Origin: Candidatus Aminicenantota bacterium
GTDB lineage: Bacteria > Acidobacteriota > Aminicenantia > Aminicenantales > Aminicenantaceae
Reading direction: 5' to 3'
NCBI GenBank assembly: GCA_020348385.1
Contig: CP070750.1
Coordinates: forward strand, 4,044,239 to 4,108,238
DNA length: 64,000 nucleotides
Within the stretch, counting starts at the first letter, position 1. Every line of letters begins with the position of its first letter. Shown here in pieces: positions 8,905 to 18,589 of the stretch. A program made the position numbers and the translations under genes. Below the pieces are notes generated by a model, which was not told the origin of the DNA, did no database searches, and saw only the letters and a list, made by a program, of their open reading frames with translations.

Positions 8905-9000
8905 TGGCGGGAAGGTGTGGGAGTTGAACCCACCCAGGACTTTTCACAGCCCCGCGCTGGTTTTGAAGACCAGGAGGCCCACCGGGACCAATACCTTCCC
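8905..9000 (-). tRNA. selC: tRNA-Sec (anticodon UCA) with encoded CCA
   Basis: The RNA begins GGGAAGGT at 9000 and ends ACCTTCCC-G-CCA at 8905. It has an 8-bp acceptor stem and a 5-bp T stem (GTGGG/CCCAC around TTCAACT), making the 13-bp stack typical of bacterial tRNA-Sec. The anticodon loop CTTCAAA inside CTGGT/ACCAG gives UCA. The long variable arm lies between the anticodon and T stems. It starts 5 bases after the selB stop codon, so it is probably co-transcribed with selB. Confidence 0.95.
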
Positions 9001-9005
9001 GAGAG

Positions 9006-10922
9006 TTATCTTAATATATGCACGTCTTTGTCGCGTTTTGTCAATCCTATATTGTCAAAATATTCCAAAATCGCTGTCGCGTATTTCCGCGAGAGCTGGA
9101 GGATATCGCGAAGTTCGGCAACCGTGATACTCGGGTACTTTGCAAGATACTGCAGGACAATCCTCCTGGCTTTTTCGATGGCATCCCTATGGTAGACGAC
9201 TTTGTCGCTGAGGCGCACTAGAACTCCTCTCTCCAACAGGTTATACATGAGATTTTTGAATTCCTTTGTGTTGAGCCCCATCTTCTGCCTCAGTTCTTCC
9301 TCGATCGGAGAAGCGAAACCCATCCGTTGGAAATCTTGCTCGATTCGCTGGAGAATCTCCTGATCTCTTGGTTTGAGTTTGGATTCGTATCCCACAAGGC
9401 TCACATCTGAGTTCTTCCGCTTGAGGAAGCCTATTTCTACCAGGTCACCAATAACCGCCCTAAACGTCATGCTGTCCGTCAGCTCGAGAATCTTGGACCG
9501 GAGTTCTTCATAAGGCATCGCCAAGCGATGAGGGTTTTTATCCAAATAGTCCATGATTGTGGATTTCGATTTCTTTTCCAACTCTTCATAAAAATTTGCA
9601 TGCAGATATTTGGCATCCTTATGGCCTGTTATTTTTATGACTTTTTTCGATTCTTCTGAATGATGAAGAGCATCCTCGAGGGCCACCTCCTTTTCCCCGA
9701 TCTTCTTCCGCATCTCAGAAAGCGACATCGGTCGGGTTTTGGCATCCAACAAGACCTGATAAATCCTTTCTGTCAAGTCGCCGCCAAGCCTCTGCAAACC
9801 CTCTACCGTTTTGGCATCGAATCTTTTGTGCTTTTCCGGAGTGGAATCGAGAATTTCCCCTCCCCCCATCGTCATTAAAGGGGAAAATGTCCGGATCACG
9901 AAGCGATCCCCCGGCAGAGCAACCGTGGGGGATTCGAGGACAAACTGAACCAAAGCTTCCTGGCCTGGATGTAGAAAATCTTCCTCGAGGAGAACCAATC
10001 GCGATATGATCTCGGTCGTTCCCACATGAAGCCTGATCCTCGTTCTGTTCTTGAGTTTTTTCCCGTAACTCTTCAACAACCTGAGGTTCACATCCAATCG
10101 ATAAGTCGGGCTGAGAGAACCGGGTTCACCCGCACATTGCCCCCGTTTCAACACCTCCTTTTTGACATCCTGTAGGTTCAAAGCTGTGCGTTTTCCCAAA
10201 ACCGATCGGGCCACTTTCCGGTGATGAACTTGAATCCCTCGGACTTTTCCGGTTATCCCCTCCGGGAATATCTCGATCCTATCTCCATTTTCGACTTGGC
10301 CCGAGAGTATTGTTCCGGCAATAACCGTCCCGAATCCTCGCATGGTGAAAACCCGATCGACCGGCATCCGGAATATCCCGCTGTCGTGCCGAGTCCCGAC
10401 TTCATCACCCAAAACCATCATGGCTTTTTTCAAATCGTCAATACCGTTGCCATCCACTGCAGATACGGGAATGATCGGGGCATTTTCCAGGAAAGAATCC
10501 TTCAGGAAATTTTTCGTCTGACCGGTCACCTCGAGAATTCGATCTTCTGTCACGAGATCTGATTTTGTGAGAGCGACGATTCCTCTTTTTACTCCGAGAA
10601 GCCGGAGGATATCAAAATGTTCCCTGGTCTGGAGGGAGATCCCTTCATCAGCCGCAATGACCAAAAGGGCTGCATCGATGTTACTCGCCCCTGCGACCAT
10701 GGTTTTGATGAGCTTTTCGTGGCCGGGCACATCGATGAACACGATCTGTTTGTCGTAATCTGGAGTGTCCAAAAAAACAAATCCCAGTTCAATCGTAATG
10801 CCGCGGCGCTTTTCCTCGGCTAAAGTATCCGCATCGATCCCAGTTAGGGCTTTGACGAGAAGAGTTTTGCCGTGGTCGATATGACCGGCGGTGCCGATGA
10901 TGACATGCTCGATATCTGTCAT
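9006..10922 (-). CDS. selB: Selenocysteine-specific elongation factor SelB
   Basis: About 638 residues from ATG 10922; a TTG seven codons upstream is an alternative. It delivers Sec-tRNA to the ribosome at UGA codons marked by a SECIS hairpin. Visible features: G1 motif [11 protein letters not shown], switch region [16 protein letters not shown], and TKSD; then two beta-barrel domains; then C-terminal winged-helix repeats (about 370-638) that bind the SECIS. Its presence, with selC, selA and selD, means this genome decodes UGA as Sec. It directly precedes tRNA-Sec. Confidence 0.95.
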
Positions 10923-10987
10923 GGCTGAGGATGCCTTTTCCAAGGAAGGGCTATAGAATAACAGAATATCCGCGTGTTGAAAAGAAA

Positions 10988-11401
10988 TCAGAGTTTTCTG
11001 GCCAAGCGCTTCAAATCACTCTTCAGCAACATAAGCTTGGCATCAGGGTACACAGCAGTCAGGACGTCCTCGAGATTCTGGATTTCTTCTGCAATCTTCT
11101 GACGAACAGTGGTGCCTTCTTTCGTCAACCAGATGTTTTTACACCGCCTGTCCGAATCGCAATCCACTCTTTCGATGTATATTTTTTCACACAAACGATC
11201 GATGACACGGCTTCCCCTGGAAACGGATAATTCCATGCGTTTAGAAAACTCTTGGCAGGTTATTTTTTCCTCCTTGCCGATGCAAAGAATCCCCCTATAA
11301 TCTGCTTCGGAAAGGCCAAGTTTCTTCCTTATCTTGTGTTCACGAGCCAGAATGCCTTTTCCGATTTCCCCGAGAATAACAATCAATTTTTCATCGGTCA
11401 A
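10988..11401 (-). CDS. MarR-family transcriptional regulator
   Basis: About 137 residues. A winged helix-turn-helix is visible (KLGLSEADYRGILCIGKEEKITCQEFSKRMELSVSRGSRVIDRL), with the beta-wing containing the conserved Asp-Arg of DCDSDRRCKNIWLT. The longest frame starts at a TTG at 11419. A TTG at 11401 follows AGGAGA by 6 bases and is the better start. The gene diverges from fmdB, and the shared 100-base gap holds two overlapping promoters around a perfect palindrome. It probably represses itself and fmdB. Confidence 0.85.
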   Translation of the reverse strand: MTDEKLIVILGEIGKGILAREHKIRKKLGLSEADYRGILCIGKEEKITCQEFSKRMELSVSRGSRVIDRLCEKIYIERVDCDSDRRCKNIWLTKEGTTVRQKIAEEIQNLEDVLTAVYPDAKLMLLKSDLKRLARKL

Positions 11402-11722: not shown

Positions 11723-12295
11723 CTAGCGAAATTTTATCTGCGAAAATATATCCTGGTTTATTTTATTTACCTCTTTGGCAGCCGGAACAACCTGAAAAGG
11801 GATTTCGAACTCGAGCGTTTCCGGAGCCAAACACGACACATCATCGCAAGCCTGATATAAAAAGCTGGCCTTCAACATATTCTTTCCCTGCGGTATCGTA
11901 TCGCTGACGTGGATGCGTGCTCCCAAAACAACTTTCCCTTCGTAGACCTGGAGTTCCACCTCAGAGAAACTGTAGGTTCGTGTTTCAGGAACAGGATAGT
12001 AAATCTCATCAACTTCGACATTGTCATCCTCTTCGATCATGAGGGTACACGCGATCAGAAACTGATCGGTCAGCTCAGGACCGTTGATGTGCCAGCCCGG
12101 AGTGATGTCCAGGAGAAAAGCGACATCGATTTTTCCTCCCGGGTGCACGCCGTCATGAGAAACATAGGTTTTGACATCAAGGACTTCCCCTTCGGTCCCT
12201 CCTGATGAAAACCCCATCAGAAGAGGAAAACAAACAAGGGCAAACAAGGATGCGACTCTATGCCATGATTTGGATTGAAACTTGTTCTTCAACAT
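11723..12295 (-). CDS. Exported DsbD-alpha-like thiol protein
   Basis: 190 residues with a signal peptide (hydrophobic to about residue 30). The body resembles the N-terminal Ig-fold domain of DsbD: PGGKIDVAFLLDITPGWHINGP, then the cysteine pair in YQACDDVSCLAPETLEFEIPF. In DsbD this domain passes electrons to periplasmic partners. Here the membrane and thioredoxin domains are absent, so it must act as a separate subunit or a thiol-binding protein. It lies 62 bases downstream of the thioredoxin-like selenoprotein in the same direction, which suggests a shared redox role. No clear Shine-Dalgarno is seen. Confidence 0.75.
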   Translation of the reverse strand: MLKNKFQSKSWHRVASLFALVCFPLLMGFSSGGTEGEVLDVKTYVSHDGVHPGGKIDVAFLLDITPGWHINGPELTDQFLIACTLMIEEDDNVEVDEIYYPVPETRTYSFSEVELQVYEGKVVLGARIHVSDTIPQGKNMLKASFLYQACDDVSCLAPETLEFEIPFQVVPAAKEVNKINQDIFSQIKFR

Positions 12296-12357: not shown

Positions 12358-13881
12358 CTACTTTTTTTCTTTTGTTTTTTCTATGGCTTTTTTTATCTGC
12401 TCTATTTTGCTCTTGTACCGGACTTTGACCTGATCATCGGCGAGTTCATAGGCCTTTTCCGCGGCCTTGAGCGCGTCCTCATAATTCTCCAGTTTCTGAT
12501 ACACGGTGGCCAAGGTGTTCCAATTGTAGGAAGCTTCCTGTAGCTCGATGGATTTTTTCACCGCTTCGAGAGCGCTTTCCAAGTTTTTCCCCTGTTGGGC
12601 CCAAAACATCGCATAGCTGTTCAAAACTGTGGCATTATCTTGATGTTTTGTCGCAAATTCAGGCCCAAAAATCTTCAGGGCCTTTTCTTCCTTTTCCAGC
12701 TTGAGGAAATTCTCCGCAGCAGCCCGGAAGTTAGACCACCTGTCCGGGTTTACCTTCAAGGCTAACTCCATCATGGTTTCAGCATTTTCGGTATTGGTTT
12801 TGTGTTTCACCCAGAAGCTGGCATACTGCATGAGCGTGTAAGTCAGATCAGAAACCTGTCTCTCTGCGAATCTCTTGCCGAAAGTATCATTCGCTTTATC
12901 CTTTTCTCCGCTCAGCATGTATAGTTCTGCAAGATCCTTCACGAAATAAGGATCTGGATTATATTTCATGATATCGTTGTTGATTTTTTCTGCCAGCTCG
13001 ATCCCCTTATCGATGTTGTCCTTATCCTTATCCCGGATGATTCTGGAGATATAAGAGCTGAGGACATAGGGATCATCGGGATACCTGGATGTGTATTCGT
13101 CGAAGAATACTTTGGCTTCCTCTTTGGGAGCCCGTGTCTGGTAATAATAACTCAAACGCGAGTATGAAGATTTCATCAACGGGCTTTCCGGATACTTTTT
13201 GATAAAAGCCTTGAGCGGTTCCGGATCCATTTTGCGGGCAAAAGCCGACATGGCTCCTATCGAGAACTCAGCGTATTCGGTGAAGGTAACCTTTTGGTCT
13301 TGATAATCCGTGGTTCCTTTTGCCCCGTTCGGGTCAAGGGTCAAAACTTCATTGTATAGCTCCTTGGCTTTTTCCTCCTCATATTTTCTGTCGTATTTCC
13401 GCGCAAGCTTAAAAACCGTTTCGACGTTTTTGGGATCTTCGGCGTATGCAGCAGAAATGGACTTAAACGTGTCGATACCCTTCACGCTTTTTTCGATGGT
13501 TTCGAGGAACTTTTCCGGAGGAGGACCATACCCGACATGCCAGTCATACTCTGAGCCATCATTGTCGAGTATCAATGTCGTCGGTGTGGCCCGAATGTTG
13601 AACCTTTTGTAAACCTCGTCTCCTATTTTATCTCCCCTTACGGCATGGAAAAGAACAAAATTCTTGTTGAAAAACTCTTGAAATTTTTTGTTTCCGTAGA
13701 ACTGCTGATCCAGCAGTATGCAGGATCCTCAGCCATCCGAGAAAAAGTCGATCAGAACCAGCTTGTTTTCGCTTTTGGCCTTTGAGACAGCATCGTCAAG
13801 GCTGCCTTGGAACCAGTCCTGAGCGACTCCAAAGGAGGATAAAAAAATGAGGAGAAGAGATAGAACGAATAATTTTTTCAT
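12358..13881 (-). CDS. Selenoprotein: exported thioredoxin-like (UxxC) protein with TPR repeats
   Basis: The frame from ATG 13881 (preceded by GAGGAGGTAAG) to 12358 is interrupted only by a TGA at 13729-13731. Reading it as selenocysteine gives 507 residues: a signal peptide (1-20), a thioredoxin-like domain (about 21-130) with U51-G-S-C54 in place of CxxC and a cis-Pro loop RATPTT (P100), then TPR-like helices to the end. Sequence on both sides of the TGA belongs to one thioredoxin fold, which rules out two separate genes. A SECIS-like hairpin follows, and selD and selA lie directly upstream. Probable role: periplasmic thiol/disulfide redox. A caller that treats TGA as stop would give fragments of 61 and 405 residues. 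Confidence 0.9.
13702..13716 (-). promoter_or_regulatory. SECIS-like hairpin for the UxxC selenoprotein
   Basis: In the mRNA, 12 bases after the UGA, CTGCT-GGATC-AGCAG forms a perfect 5-bp stem (6 bp with the flanking A-T) and a 5-base loop starting with GG. The loop lies 17 bases after the UGA, within the known bacterial SECIS window of roughly 16-37. Bacterial SECIS loops usually expose a G to SelB. Confidence 0.7.
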
Positions 13882-13995
13882 TCTTACCTCCTCAAAATAT
13901 GAGTAGCTCTTCATCAGTTTCTACTATAGAGGACATGCTTTCCCTTGTCAATAAGTTTTGGGAAACTATTCTGAATTGCTGCATTTGTAGCATGA

Positions 13996-15198
13996 CTAAT
14001 TTTTGGGATTCACGGTCAAAATGATCTTTCCATCGGATTCAGACACAACTCTGCCGATGATTGCCGCCGAGTTCACCCCTTTTCCCTTGAGTTTTGCTAC
14101 AAACTCATCTGAATGATCTTCCTTGACCGCAATAAGAAATCCCCCTGACGTCTGAGGATCATATAGGGCAATCTCCACATCTTCGCTCACGCCCTCATTG
14201 ACCTCCACGTATTGAGTAGCGTATTCCCTGTTTCTCTCGATGGCACCGGATATCAGCTCTTCCCGCACATAGCCCAACACATGCTTAAAAAAAGGAACCT
14301 GGTCCGTAAAAATCTCTGCTGTGACCTTACTCTGGGCGACCATTTCGCTCAGATGTCCCATCAAGCCGAAGCCTGTGACATCCGTTGCTGTGGTAACGCC
14401 AGCTTCAACCATAGCCTCGGCGGCCACTTTGTTCAGCTCTGCCATGGATTGTCCTATAACTGCCATGTCTTCCCTGGACGCCCGACCCAATTGACTGGCA
14501 AAACTGATGACTCCGGTTCCTAGGGGCTTGGTTAGGATCAAAACGTCCCCGGGTTCGGCCTTGTCGTTGGTGATGATCTTTTTTGGGTCAATGACGCCTG
14601 TCACGGCAAACCCGAACTTGATCTCGGTATCCTTGATACTATGTCCGCCGATCACTTCAACACCGGCTTCCTTCATCTTATCGATTCCGCCCCGCAACAT
14701 CTGATTCATGACCAAGTGACTCATGGTTTCGATCGGGAATCCTACGACCGACAATGCGGTTAGCGGCTCGCCTCCCATGGCATAGATATCGCTTAGGGAA
14801 TTGGCGGCGGCTATCTGACCGAAGATGTGCGGATCGTCCACGTTGGGAGTGAACACATCGACAGACTGGACCAGGGCCAAATCATCTGTCAGCTTGTACA
14901 CTCCGGCATCGTCGCAAGTATTGGCACTGACAAGGACTTTCGGGTTCGATATAGCTGGGAGGCCGGCCAACACAATTTTCAGGTCGGTCTGGTTGATTTT
15001 CGAGGCACACCCGGCATTCTCCACAAACTGTGTAAGCGGTATGTTATCCGGCATATCCCCCAATCTTTCCCCTGCGCATAAGCAAACGTTTTCCTGTTTG
15101 AAAAGATCGCAGGGGCACGGCTGTTTGGGATTGCAGATGCATTGCCCGAGTTTGATCGAGCGCTGCATAATCTGTTTTCTTTTTTCTTTATCGGCCAT
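13996..15198 (-). CDS. selD: Selenide, water dikinase SelD with Cys-rich N-terminal extension
   Basis: 400 residues. It makes selenophosphate from selenide and ATP, the Se donor for Sec synthesis. The active-site segment is NAGC64-ASK67, with Cys in place of the Sec seen in some SelDs. Later AIRS-type motifs include VDVFTPNVDDPHIFGQIAAANSLSDIYAMGG, VIGGHS, TDVTGFGLMGHL and DPQTSGG. Unusually, about 45 residues precede the core and hold three CxC pairs (C20/C22, C28/C30, C39/C41), able to bind a metal or Se. It starts 8 bases after the selA stop, so the two form an operon that runs on into the selenoprotein gene. Confidence 0.95.
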   Translation of the reverse strand: MADKEKRKQIMQRSIKLGQCICNPKQPCPCDLFKQENVCLCAGERLGDMPDNIPLTQFVENAGCASKINQTDLKIVLAGLPAISNPKVLVSANTCDDAGVYKLTDDLALVQSVDVFTPNVDDPHIFGQIAAANSLSDIYAMGGEPLTALSVVGFPIETMSHLVMNQMLRGGIDKMKEAGVEVIGGHSIKDTEIKFGFAVTGVIDPKKIITNDKAEPGDVLILTKPLGTGVISFASQLGRASREDMAVIGQSMAELNKVAAEAMVEAGVTTATDVTGFGLMGHLSEMVAQSKVTAEIFTDQVPFFKHVLGYVREELISGAIERNREYATQYVEVNEGVSEDVEIALYDPQTSGGFLIAVKEDHSDEFVAKLKGKGVNSAAIIGRVVSESDGKIILTVNPKN

Positions 15199-15206
15199 GG
15201 AATACC

Positions 15207-16616
15207 CTAGCCTCTCTTGAGGGCAAAAAGTAAAGCATCCAGAACAACCTTATCTTCCTCTTCTTGGATTGTCCGGACATCCAACAGCACGGCATCATTC
15301 TGCACCCTCGGAAAAACAGGGGTTTGATTATACCGCAACAACCGGCCTAAGCTATCGGCTGAAAGATCCTTAGATTTCACCATCAAAAGTTTGGTGGGAA
15401 TGGTCTGCACAGGCACAGATCCGCTTCCAACCTGAGAACCTCCCTCCACAACAGAGAATTCCACCCCCTCTGGAATCTGTTTCATGAGACTCCTCATAAC
15501 CTTTTTTGCCCGCGATTCAATTTTTTCGATAGGGAGTGCAAACATCTTGTGAACAGGATGCTTCTCCTTCAATTTTTCCGGTAACCGGAAAAGCCTCAGT
15601 GTCGCCTCCATCCCGGCGATGGTCATCTTGCCGATACGGAATGCCCGGGCCAGAGGATTTTTTCTTATTCTCTTGATGAGGTCGGCTTTTCCCACGATAA
15701 TGCCAGCTTGAGGGCCACCGATGAGCTTGTCCCCGCTGAAGCAGGCAACATCAGCTCCTGCCATCAGACTGTGTTGGACCATAGGCTCAGATTCGAAACC
15801 ATAATCACGCACATCCACCAGAGCTCCGCTTCCCAGGTCGTCGATCAGGGGAACATTGTGCTCTTTGGCCAGCTGGGCCAACTCTTCGATATCAGGCTCC
15901 CCTGAAAAACCCACGATGCGGTAGTTGCTGTGATGCACGCGCATGATTGCACCTGTTTCTTCCCAGATCACCGAGGCATAATCCCAGAGATGAGTCCGGT
16001 TCGTGGTGCCCACTTCCCGGAGAATGGCTCCGCTTGCCGCCATGACATCCGGCATTCGGAAAGCCCCACCGATCTCGACCAACTGGCCTCGGGAAACGAT
16101 GACTTCCTTTCCGTTTGCCAGGGTGTTTAGGGTAAGCATGGTGGCGGCTGCGTTATTATTAACGACAGTTGCAGCCTCAGCTCCCGTAATCTCACAGAGA
16201 AGATCATCGAGATGGACATCTCGATGGCCCCGCCTTCCTGTCTCGACATCTGTGGCCAAAGTGCAGTACCCTTCGATAACCTCATTGATGGCATCCTGTG
16301 CATCTTCGGAAAGCACAGCCCGTCCCAAACCTGTGTGGAGGATAACGCCTGATGCATTTACGGCCTTGACTAGAGAGGGCAAAAATGCCTTTTGGAGATG
16401 TGTCTCGATTTCTTTCAGGATGCTCTCCTGAGACAGCTTATCTTCTGCAGGTGAATCCTTCTCTTCTTTTCTAATGGCAGATCGCAACTCCTCTATGACC
16501 TTTCGGACTGCATCAACAACAATCTCCCTTCCATACTTTTCTATCAAACGTTCCAATGCCTCCGTTTTCAGAAGACTGTCCACAGAGGGAAGCTGACGGA
16601 GAATATCTTTGGTCAT
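15207..16616 (-). CDS. selA: L-seryl-tRNA(Sec) selenium transferase SelA
   Basis: About 469 residues from ATG 16616, which follows ACAGGAAATAAAA; in-frame codons upstream to 16706 are not needed. It is a PLP enzyme that converts Ser-tRNA(Sec) to Sec-tRNA(Sec). The N-terminal domain LRQLPSVDSLL is typical of SelA. The PLP lysine lies in CFSGDKLIGGPQAGIIVG, and GREIVVDAVRKVIEELR and HTGLGRA are also family-typical. It heads the selA-selD-selenoprotein run on the minus strand. Confidence 0.95.
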   Translation of the reverse strand: MTKDILRQLPSVDSLLKTEALERLIEKYGREIVVDAVRKVIEELRSAIRKEEKDSPAEDKLSQESILKEIETHLQKAFLPSLVKAVNASGVILHTGLGRAVLSEDAQDAINEVIEGYCTLATDVETGRRGHRDVHLDDLLCEITGAEAATVVNNNAAATMLTLNTLANGKEVIVSRGQLVEIGGAFRMPDVMAASGAILREVGTTNRTHLWDYASVIWEETGAIMRVHHSNYRIVGFSGEPDIEELAQLAKEHNVPLIDDLGSGALVDVRDYGFESEPMVQHSLMAGADVACFSGDKLIGGPQAGIIVGKADLIKRIRKNPLARAFRIGKMTIAGMEATLRLFRLPEKLKEKHPVHKMFALPIEKIESRAKKVMRSLMKQIPEGVEFSVVEGGSQVGSGSVPVQTIPTKLLMVKSKDLSADSLGRLLRYNQTPVFPRVQNDAVLLDVRTIQEEEDKVVLDALLFALKRG

Positions 16617-16737
16617 TTTTATTTCCTGTAAAAATGTTATAGCTGTCCTCATAATGTAGCATTTATATTCCCGGTTCATCAAGTATAGAAATCCGGCCAT
16701 AAACATCTTCTTTCCGTGATCTCGAAAGACAATATGC

Positions 16738-17020: not shown

Positions 17021-18589
17021 TTAATCGGGCAGCTTTGCTGCGATGCGGAATGTTCCTCCAAACCGGCGGCACCAACCTTCGTCGTTGTTGCAGATCCAGA
17101 CATCCGGGGTAATCTCGACTACGAATTCCTTAGCCCCAGATTCCTTTTTCCACCAGAAGGCAAGGATGCGCGGATCGGTGTCTTCTTCCCCTTCCCGATC
17201 TCCAGCCCGGACGGAATTCTTTTCCAACTCAACACCAGATACAGGCTTCAGGCCGATTTGAGCCGGGGAGGCCAGATTATTCCACACGAAGCCTGATTTG
17301 TCGTCAACTTTCAGGATTAAATAGACCATGCCTTGTCCAGGATGTGCTGGCTCGTTGTATATGGATGCTTCGACAGAGTAGGGAAGAGATGCTTCGGAAG
17401 TTTGTGTGCAATCCAGAACACTGAGCTTATCTTTCGCGGGAAGTTTATCAGGCAAAATCTCGTCCATGCTTTTTTCGAGTGTCGGAATAGAACCGAAGAC
17501 CTGGAATGTCCTGGTCCACTCTTGCGATGTTTCATCTTCACCCTGTCCCATCGTAGCCTTGACGGTGGCTGTAAATTCCAGGTTCTCAGCATCTTCGTTT
17601 TGGGCCCACATCACGCCGACGGTATGGGGATAGATGTCCTTTCCCTCCCTTCTTTTGCCCGCCACGATTTTGTTTTTCTGCAGTTCGACACCTTGAGCAC
17701 CTTCCAGCAGGATCTCGGTCGCCACAGCATTGTCAAAAAAGGCTTTGCTTTTTTCATCGGGACTGACCGTTAGGTACATCCGGCTTAACCCGGTGGGCGT
17801 CACTTTGGGAGGGAGTGTTCCGGCCTCGAGATGAACGGGAGCATTTTCCCCTGAAACATCTTTGATTTTCAACGGAGACAAAGCCTGGCGGGGCACTTCG
17901 GTTGCGGGAACCTCATCGTTGTCCGCGAAGGAAACGGCCATGCGTGGTCGATTGGCAAGCTCTTCCCATTTCTTTTCGGAAATCCCGGATGGTCCCAACC
18001 TCTCCTCCAACACTTTTTTCAACTCCTCGGGTTTAGCCCAATCCCAAGAGGCAAGAAGGGTTCCATCCTTGTCGATGACAAATTCCATGTTGGGCATTCC
18101 GCCATAGGTATTCTGCAGTGTATTGTCCATGTTATCGATGATCCAGGGGATGTCGAGCTGCAATTCGGCACTGGCTAGACGGGTGTACTCCTGTCGCATT
18201 TCAAGAGAGTCGGGCTGGGTGAAACCATAAAATCCAGGGTGAGGTTCACGACTCAAAACATTGTAAAACGAAACGCCGCGGTGACCGAAGGCTTTACTCA
18301 GAGCCTCCTCACGGGAGGCTATGCGTCGCCAAGGCGGTCACGTACAACCTCCCCACTGGATGACAAGAAGGGAATCTTTGTATAGGTTGCTCAATGGGAT
18401 CTCGTTCAGATCCTTGTCGTAGATCATGATGTCGGGAACTTTCTTGCCGACCTTTGGAGATCGTTCTTCCCAAGGAATACGCGGTCTGCGCTGCTGTTGT
18501 TGCCGCTGCTGCTGTCCCTTGAGAAAGGAACCGATCAGCAGAAGCACGAACAGAGAAAAGAAAACAAGGGAAATGCGTCCTTTTTTCAT
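17021..18589 (-). CDS. Selenoprotein: exported deiodinase-like protein (CTUPP) with two repeated beta-domains
   Basis: One frame from ATG 18589 to 17021 is broken only by TGA at 18338-18340. Read as Sec it gives 522 residues. There is an N-terminal membrane anchor or signal (6-23), a Gln-rich linker, then a thioredoxin-fold domain (about 45-220) with GGC82-T-U84-PPW, nearly identical to the GSCTUPPF active site of iodothyronine deiodinases. Downstream, E115-P-H117 matches the deiodinase EAH segment and NMDNTLQNTYGGMPNMEFVIDKDG its later core. Residues about 235-522 are two related DsbD-alpha-like domains, each with GVEL-K-N...AG.REG; the second has the cysteine pair ICNNDEGWC. The reaction is unknown: reductive dehalogenation or peroxide/thiol chemistry. 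Confidence 0.88.
18302..18320 (-). promoter_or_regulatory. SECIS-like hairpin for the deiodinase-like selenoprotein
   Basis: Seventeen bases after the UGA, AGCCTCC-CGTGA-GGAGGCT forms a perfect 7-bp stem with a 5-base loop containing GU. The loop begins 24 bases after the UGA, inside the bacterial SECIS range. Confidence 0.7.

Follow-up and report, generated by a model that had tools for sequence, protein, structure and literature searches.

Within a 64,000-nt stretch of DNA from a Candidatus Aminicenantota bacterium (hereafter, the window), the gene at 12358-13881 on the minus strand encodes a fusion of a thioredoxin (Trx) domain and TPR repeats, 507 aa long, whose active site is U51-G-S-C54 when its in-frame UGA is read as selenocysteine (Sec). 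We favour the reading that this protein is an exported selenoprotein that would act as a thiol-disulfide reductase or isomerase of the cell envelope and bind clients or partners through its TPR region, and we assign this statement as a whole a probability of roughly 0.55. On sequence grounds, Sec insertion at UGA51 is nearly certain; the functional step alone, in which the TPR region would guide a thiol-disulfide reductase/isomerase of the envelope to its partners, which we prefer to a peroxide-linked or shuttle role, stands at about even odds.

The frame runs from the ATG at 13881 to 12358 on the minus strand, as do all features of the gene given below. Its 507 codons contain a single TGA, codon 51 (13729-13731), and no other stop when this codon is read as U, while the plus strand of the same span contains many stops. 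A sequence-only reading of the window had given these coordinates, with the strand left unstated, and had described an exported TPR protein with an in-frame TGA at residue 51, a Cys at residue 54 and a cis-Pro loop, all of which we recovered. A Shine-Dalgarno sequence, GAGGAGGT, was read directly at 13886-13893, 4 nt 5' of the ATG and upstream of the UGA; at this strong site ribosomes would load 50 codons ahead of the UGA. By eye, the protein begins with a classical signal peptide (13822-13881; MKKLFVLSLLLIFLSSFGVA, with Q following the putative cleavage site), which in a sister clade is replaced by a lipobox (e.g. LVLAC), so export of both clades is likely. The Trx domain covers residues ~23-127 (13501-13815) and was matched in Pfam by Thioredoxin_2 (residues 35-127; E 1.8e-11, 44.7 bits against a gathering score of 27) and by Thioredoxin_7 (residues 23-106; E 4.1e-10, 40.1 bits against 27). 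The domain had been labelled TlpA/thioredoxin-like; the matched families are of the DsbD C-terminal/DsbH-like kind and not of the TlpA/AhpC type. Around Sec51 the sequence reads ...FFSDG-U-G-S-C-ILLDQQFY..., with Cys54 (13720-13722) as the putative resolving Cys, and U51, C54 and the TPT cis-Pro loop (residues 99-101) are invariant across a 23-row alignment. The domain thus has the features of a thiol-disulfide oxidoreductase, namely a profile match above the gathering score, a CxxC-type site and a cis-Pro. In the TPR region (residues ~135-490; 12412-13479), TPR_12, TPR_2, TPR_19, TPR_8 and TPR_14 scored above their Pfam cut-offs between residues ~144 and 489, profile matches that predict a TPR fold for the C-terminal ~350 residues.

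The homologues provide evidence for Sec. At the UGA column, 62 aligned homologues from Acidobacteriota genomes showed 50 U, 12 C and no other residue, with a gap in one further row; no stop or unrelated residue was seen where the sequence-only reading had expected Sec or Cys. This count draws on 60 relatives, a search of 396 genomes of the phylum and a family-wide search; the relatives are mostly fragmented, incomplete assemblies, and the distribution was tested inside the phylum. All 39 distinct family members have the TGA at the same place and, as Cys54, a Cys three residues later; they reach down to ~40% identity or less, and their active-site motif takes the forms U-[GPA]-[SGAN]-C (including UGGC, UPGC, UGNC and UASC). 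Since every close relative keeps the UGA codon, the architecture appears to be a genuine selenoprotein one. Strong matches, counted by hand, place the family in 24 of the 60 relative genomes, with a single internal TGA in nearly every case, and the proteins of two genus mates are 77-80% identical to the one in the window. Remoter Sec members elsewhere in the phylum have WUGAC, TUHWC and TUSSC, and the one that was scanned also has TPR. A family mate (L025) has a TPR-bearing relative with Cys, in the motif WCGPC. Inside the GTDB family of the source organism, genomes without the Sec form are also without a strong Cys version, except for a distant one in G025. An orthologue in G014 that apparently lacked the TGA was rejected as a case of loss, because a scaffold gap of 100 N interrupts its sequence. 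When the Trx domains of 47 Sec rows and 11 Cys rows were placed in a maximum-likelihood tree, the two forms split at one branch with 83/93 support; one Sec/Cys change suffices in 82% of the bootstrap trees, and no return to Cys was seen. Because long branches lead to the Cys forms, a single origin of the split is suggested, not proven. From this tree with its single split, Sec appears fixed in the Trx-TPR family.

An ordinary stop at codon 51, which would divide the frame into a peptide of 50 aa and a TPR protein of its own that starts at TTG (13575-12358), as a broken gene or as two genes, agrees with standard ORF calling, which yields exactly this 405-aa TTG ORF (the downstream part of the selenoprotein), but has virtually no chance of being right given the same TGA in 39 distinct relatives with Cys at the column in the remaining homologues, the conservation of the Trx domain across the UGA with U51-x-x-C54 and the TPT loop, and the strong ribosome site upstream.

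Downstream of the UGA lies the SECIS-like hairpin of the sequence-only reading, which proved to be conserved and which covariation now supports as a SECIS. The predicted bSECIS (ACUGCUG-GAU-CAGCAGU, 13701-13717, minus strand) has 7 bp and a 3-nt loop at 13708-13710, with 11 nt between the UGA and the hairpin and 18 nt between the UGA and the loop. In 32 relatives the hairpin is fully paired (224 of 224 pair cells are standard), and all 32 have G as the first loop base. Compensatory changes were found at three of the seven pairs: A-U to C-G in two sequences, C-G to U-A in three and G-C to C-G in nine. None of 500 shuffles reached the covariation score, and the covariation was lost when the partner columns were slid by 1-3 positions as a control. 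At the innermost pair, a silent Leu change from CTG to CTC is always coupled with a change from Gln to Glu (CTC with GAG, CTG with CAG), and at a second covarying pair both of the linked changes are silent (CTG/CAG to TTG/CAA); such coupled codon changes reflect selection on the RNA. Published limits for bSECIS elements are a loop of 3-9 nt, a stem of 4-16 bp, a G within the first two loop positions, a spacing of 16-37 nt and MFE <= -7.5 (PMC13188914), and the hairpin falls within them (loop of 3 nt, stem of 7 bp, first loop base always G, spacing of 18 nt and -8.6 kcal/mol for the hairpin). The case for this predicted SECIS is carried by covariation; the folding energy alone is unremarkable (z -1.6), and in the sequence from the window the hairpin has one competing alternative fold. 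Rfam gave no SECIS match in the 64-kb window at the gathering score, a result of little weight, since no single model can cover the diversity of bacterial SECIS elements. The lipoprotein clade (L021, L022, L023, L024 and L047) is without the 7-bp hairpin and has another one a few nucleotides further on, of the GACC-NNNN-GGUC type, which suggests SECIS turnover inside one family.

SelA, SelD, SelB and tRNA-Sec, which had been reported at the locus, were all located within the window, on the same strand as the selenoprotein gene and around it: tRNA-Sec (UCA) at 8905-9000, SelB at 9006-10943, SelD at 13996-15198 and SelA at 15207-16706. A stand-alone exported DsbD_N-like protein with the dithiol YQACDDVSC is encoded directly downstream of the selenoprotein gene (11723-12295), and a second selenoprotein gene, AhpC/deiodinase-like with GGCTU84, lies at 17021-18589 (TGA 18338-18340), both also on the minus strand. 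The order SelB, DsbD_N, Trx-TPR, SelD, SelA and second selenoprotein recurs in G006, and in G024 up to SelA, where the contig ends. Across the 60 relatives, SelA was found in 20 of the 24 genomes with the family and in 4 of the 36 without it (Fisher p=1.8e-8), and SelB in 16 of 24 and 3 of 36, respectively (Fisher p=2.7e-6); the exceptions are mostly fragmented, incomplete assemblies. A lineage-wide change of the genetic code, with UGA decoded as another amino acid, would equally leave UGA open in frame but is just as improbable as a stop, for other genes terminate at TGA (e.g. the MarR gene at 10988), tRNA-Sec, SelA, SelB and SelD are present together with a covarying SECIS after the UGA, and homologues show Cys, not Trp or Gly.

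Several features of the locus and its genome deserve mention in their own right. The second selenoprotein has the motif WGGCTU84PP and a long C-terminal part, its TGA is kept in L053, and it scored 62.9 bits against NCBIfam deiodinase_rel, under the cut-off of 250. A kinship of its C-terminal part with DsbD_N, suspected from the Cys spacing, found no support from hhalign. Between its DsbD_N and selenoprotein genes, G006 encodes an exported metallopeptidase-like protein of 676 aa (HELGHCVEQ; L053:6203-8233), which is absent in the window. The source genome (G000) is a single record of 4.35 Mb, estimated 83% complete, and looks like a scaffold that contains foreign pieces outside the window; the window itself is free of N. 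A second SelB in this record (L107:8559-10722; C1:1214774-1216669), with 81% DNA identity to the SelB in the window, sits between two 100-N gaps, and its flanking joins look chimeric; the fragment is most likely a scaffolding mix-in, not a duplication.

The combination of Sec, Trx and TPR had been called rare, which is true in general but not within Aminicenantes, where genomes commonly have it, often in more than one copy. In one GTDB-type family (f2), tandem copies number four in G037, three in G043 and two each in G049, G052 and G056, and arrays in which two to four selenoprotein paralogues follow one another were mapped at L035:5474-11983, L036:6612-11363, L038:2637-5749 and L042:1209-4491. 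Such arrays represent an unusual density of Sec genes. OsmC is encoded directly upstream of the arrays in three genomes (L035, L037 and L038); other neighbours are a pyridine-nucleotide-disulphide oxidoreductase on the opposite strand in two and a DegP-type protease in one. Longer forms of ~700 aa, which have the motifs GUGNC/GUGSC and a TPR region of greater length, were also observed (L040:5642-7873, L041:6039-8480 and L043:5815-8121).

As for function, the nearest matches of the Trx domain are the DsbD C-terminal domain, TsoB, DsbH and, in the PDB, the putative disulphide isomerase 2kuc. The DsbD_N neighbour, the genes beside the tandem copies in f2 (OsmC and the pyridine-nucleotide-disulphide oxidoreductase, or the DegP-type protease) and the joining of Trx and TPR as in CnoX also speak for the functional proposal. 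We propose that Sec51 would attack a disulfide (or an oxidised thiol) of a client in the cell envelope and that C54 would then release the client, leaving a Sec-Cys selenenylsulfide that a small redox partner could recycle. The TPR region would bind clients or partners, and the whole would amount to a selenium-using envelope 'chaperedoxin', a thiol-disulfide reductase/isomerase coupled to client binding. A candidate for the recycling partner is encoded next to the gene: the DsbD_N-like dithiol protein (C1:4056045-4056380), apart from which no DsbD_N was found in the genome. The N- and C-terminal domains of DsbD are redox partners in E. coli, which makes the pairing of Trx-TPR with a DsbD_N-like protein an attractive but unproven guess. 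DsbD_N is also a near neighbour of the Trx-TPR gene in L051 and L053; the pairing was seen in only three genomes of one family, and other families have different neighbours, which counts against the proposal.

DsbD_TM had no match in the source genome, at its estimated 83% completeness, or in the selenoprotein itself, and the genome has a VKOR-type gene (C1:4311780-4312163); the protein may thus be a reductase, an isomerase or an oxidase. A stand-alone DsbD_N and a VKOR-type gene without a DsbD_TM match make an unusual envelope redox set. It is nonetheless improbable that the selenoprotein is an envelope oxidase that forms disulfides and is recharged by the VKOR-type protein, as this gene lies ~250 kb from the selenoprotein gene and Sec at such redox sites usually favours reductive chemistry. 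A mainly peroxide-linked or electron-shuttling role, in which the selenoprotein would reduce OsmC or a Prx/deiodinase-like selenoprotein and the TPR region would be a docking scaffold, survives better. It draws on the AhpC/deiodinase-like selenoprotein nearby and on OsmC upstream of the arrays, and we still consider it unlikely, because UxxC domains of the Thioredoxin_2/7 type are typically thiol-disulfide enzymes and the nearest named relatives listed above point the same way.

A wider picture may be put forward tentatively, at less than even odds: Sec-obligate, repeatedly duplicated, exported Trx-TPR 'seleno-chaperedoxins' may run a selenium-dependent envelope proteostasis/redox system in Aminicenantes and some other Acidobacteriota, with no close Cys version, and loss of the Sec machinery may lead to loss of the family, not to conversion to Cys. 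Since Cys homologues are numerous for most Sec families, the Trx-TPR family would lend itself to the question of why Sec cannot be dispensed with. The gene arrays, in which as many as four genes follow one another, open the selenium demand of these uncultured bacteria to testing. Because standard ORF calling truncates each member at the UGA, the family easily escapes notice.

The Trx-TPR architecture is an addition to the selenoprotein catalogue, while its Trx domain is itself a known selenoprotein kind: a 2026 review lists 119 selenoprotein families and subfamilies, including the Thioredoxin_2 UxxC kind (PMC13188914). The Trx-TPR fusion with fixed Sec and tandem paralogue arrays is absent from that catalogue, which mentions no TPR, and our literature search found no Trx-TPR selenoprotein and no Aminicenantes selenoprotein; other entries or papers could already contain one. 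NCBIfam had no model above cut-off for the selenoprotein. Compared with known systems, the protein stands as follows. First, the 'thiol:disulfide interchange protein' selenoprotein (PF13098; PMC13188914, Table 1) shares the Pfam family of the best domain match and a UxxC with Sec first, whereas the protein described here adds ~350 aa of TPR, absent from the catalogue entry, and forms its own clade with fixed Sec and tandem paralogues. Second, the C-terminal Trx domain of the TsoB rhodanese/DsbD fusion-like selenoprotein (NF045694) is the best NCBIfam selenoprotein match, shared by 23 of 23 aligned members; we rejected identity with TsoB, given 33.5 bits against a cut-off of 805, a match to the Trx part alone, and the absence of the rhodanese, the DsbD membrane part and the second Sec. 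Third, the Trx7/PDZ (seleno)protein (NF041199), a weak match of six members, likewise joins a Trx_7 selenoprotein domain to an interaction domain, but has CxxU and PDZ where the selenoprotein in the window has UxxC and TPR. The UGSC-containing selenoprotein family (NF041046), considered for the shared U-G-S-C letters, gave no match at E<=1 and was rejected as a different family. Fourth, the likeness to DsbD lies in the Trx domain, which resembles its C-terminal domain, and in the DsbD_N-like protein encoded next door; the protein falls outside DsbD, with the domains in separate genes, a TPR tail and no DsbD_TM. At last, an N-terminal Trx domain and a C-terminal TPR are common to our protein and the chaperedoxin CnoX/YbbN. 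CnoX/YbbN is cytosolic, whereas the selenoprotein is exported, of the Thioredoxin_2/7 type, contains Sec and has a longer and different TPR set. Membership was rejected on the signal peptide and on the Pfam matches, among which the YbbN-type TPR_20 (PF14561) was not found. CnoX in some species is a CxxC reductase and a holdase (PMC6282202), and we infer that the selenoprotein would likely work in a comparable mode, outside the cytosol.
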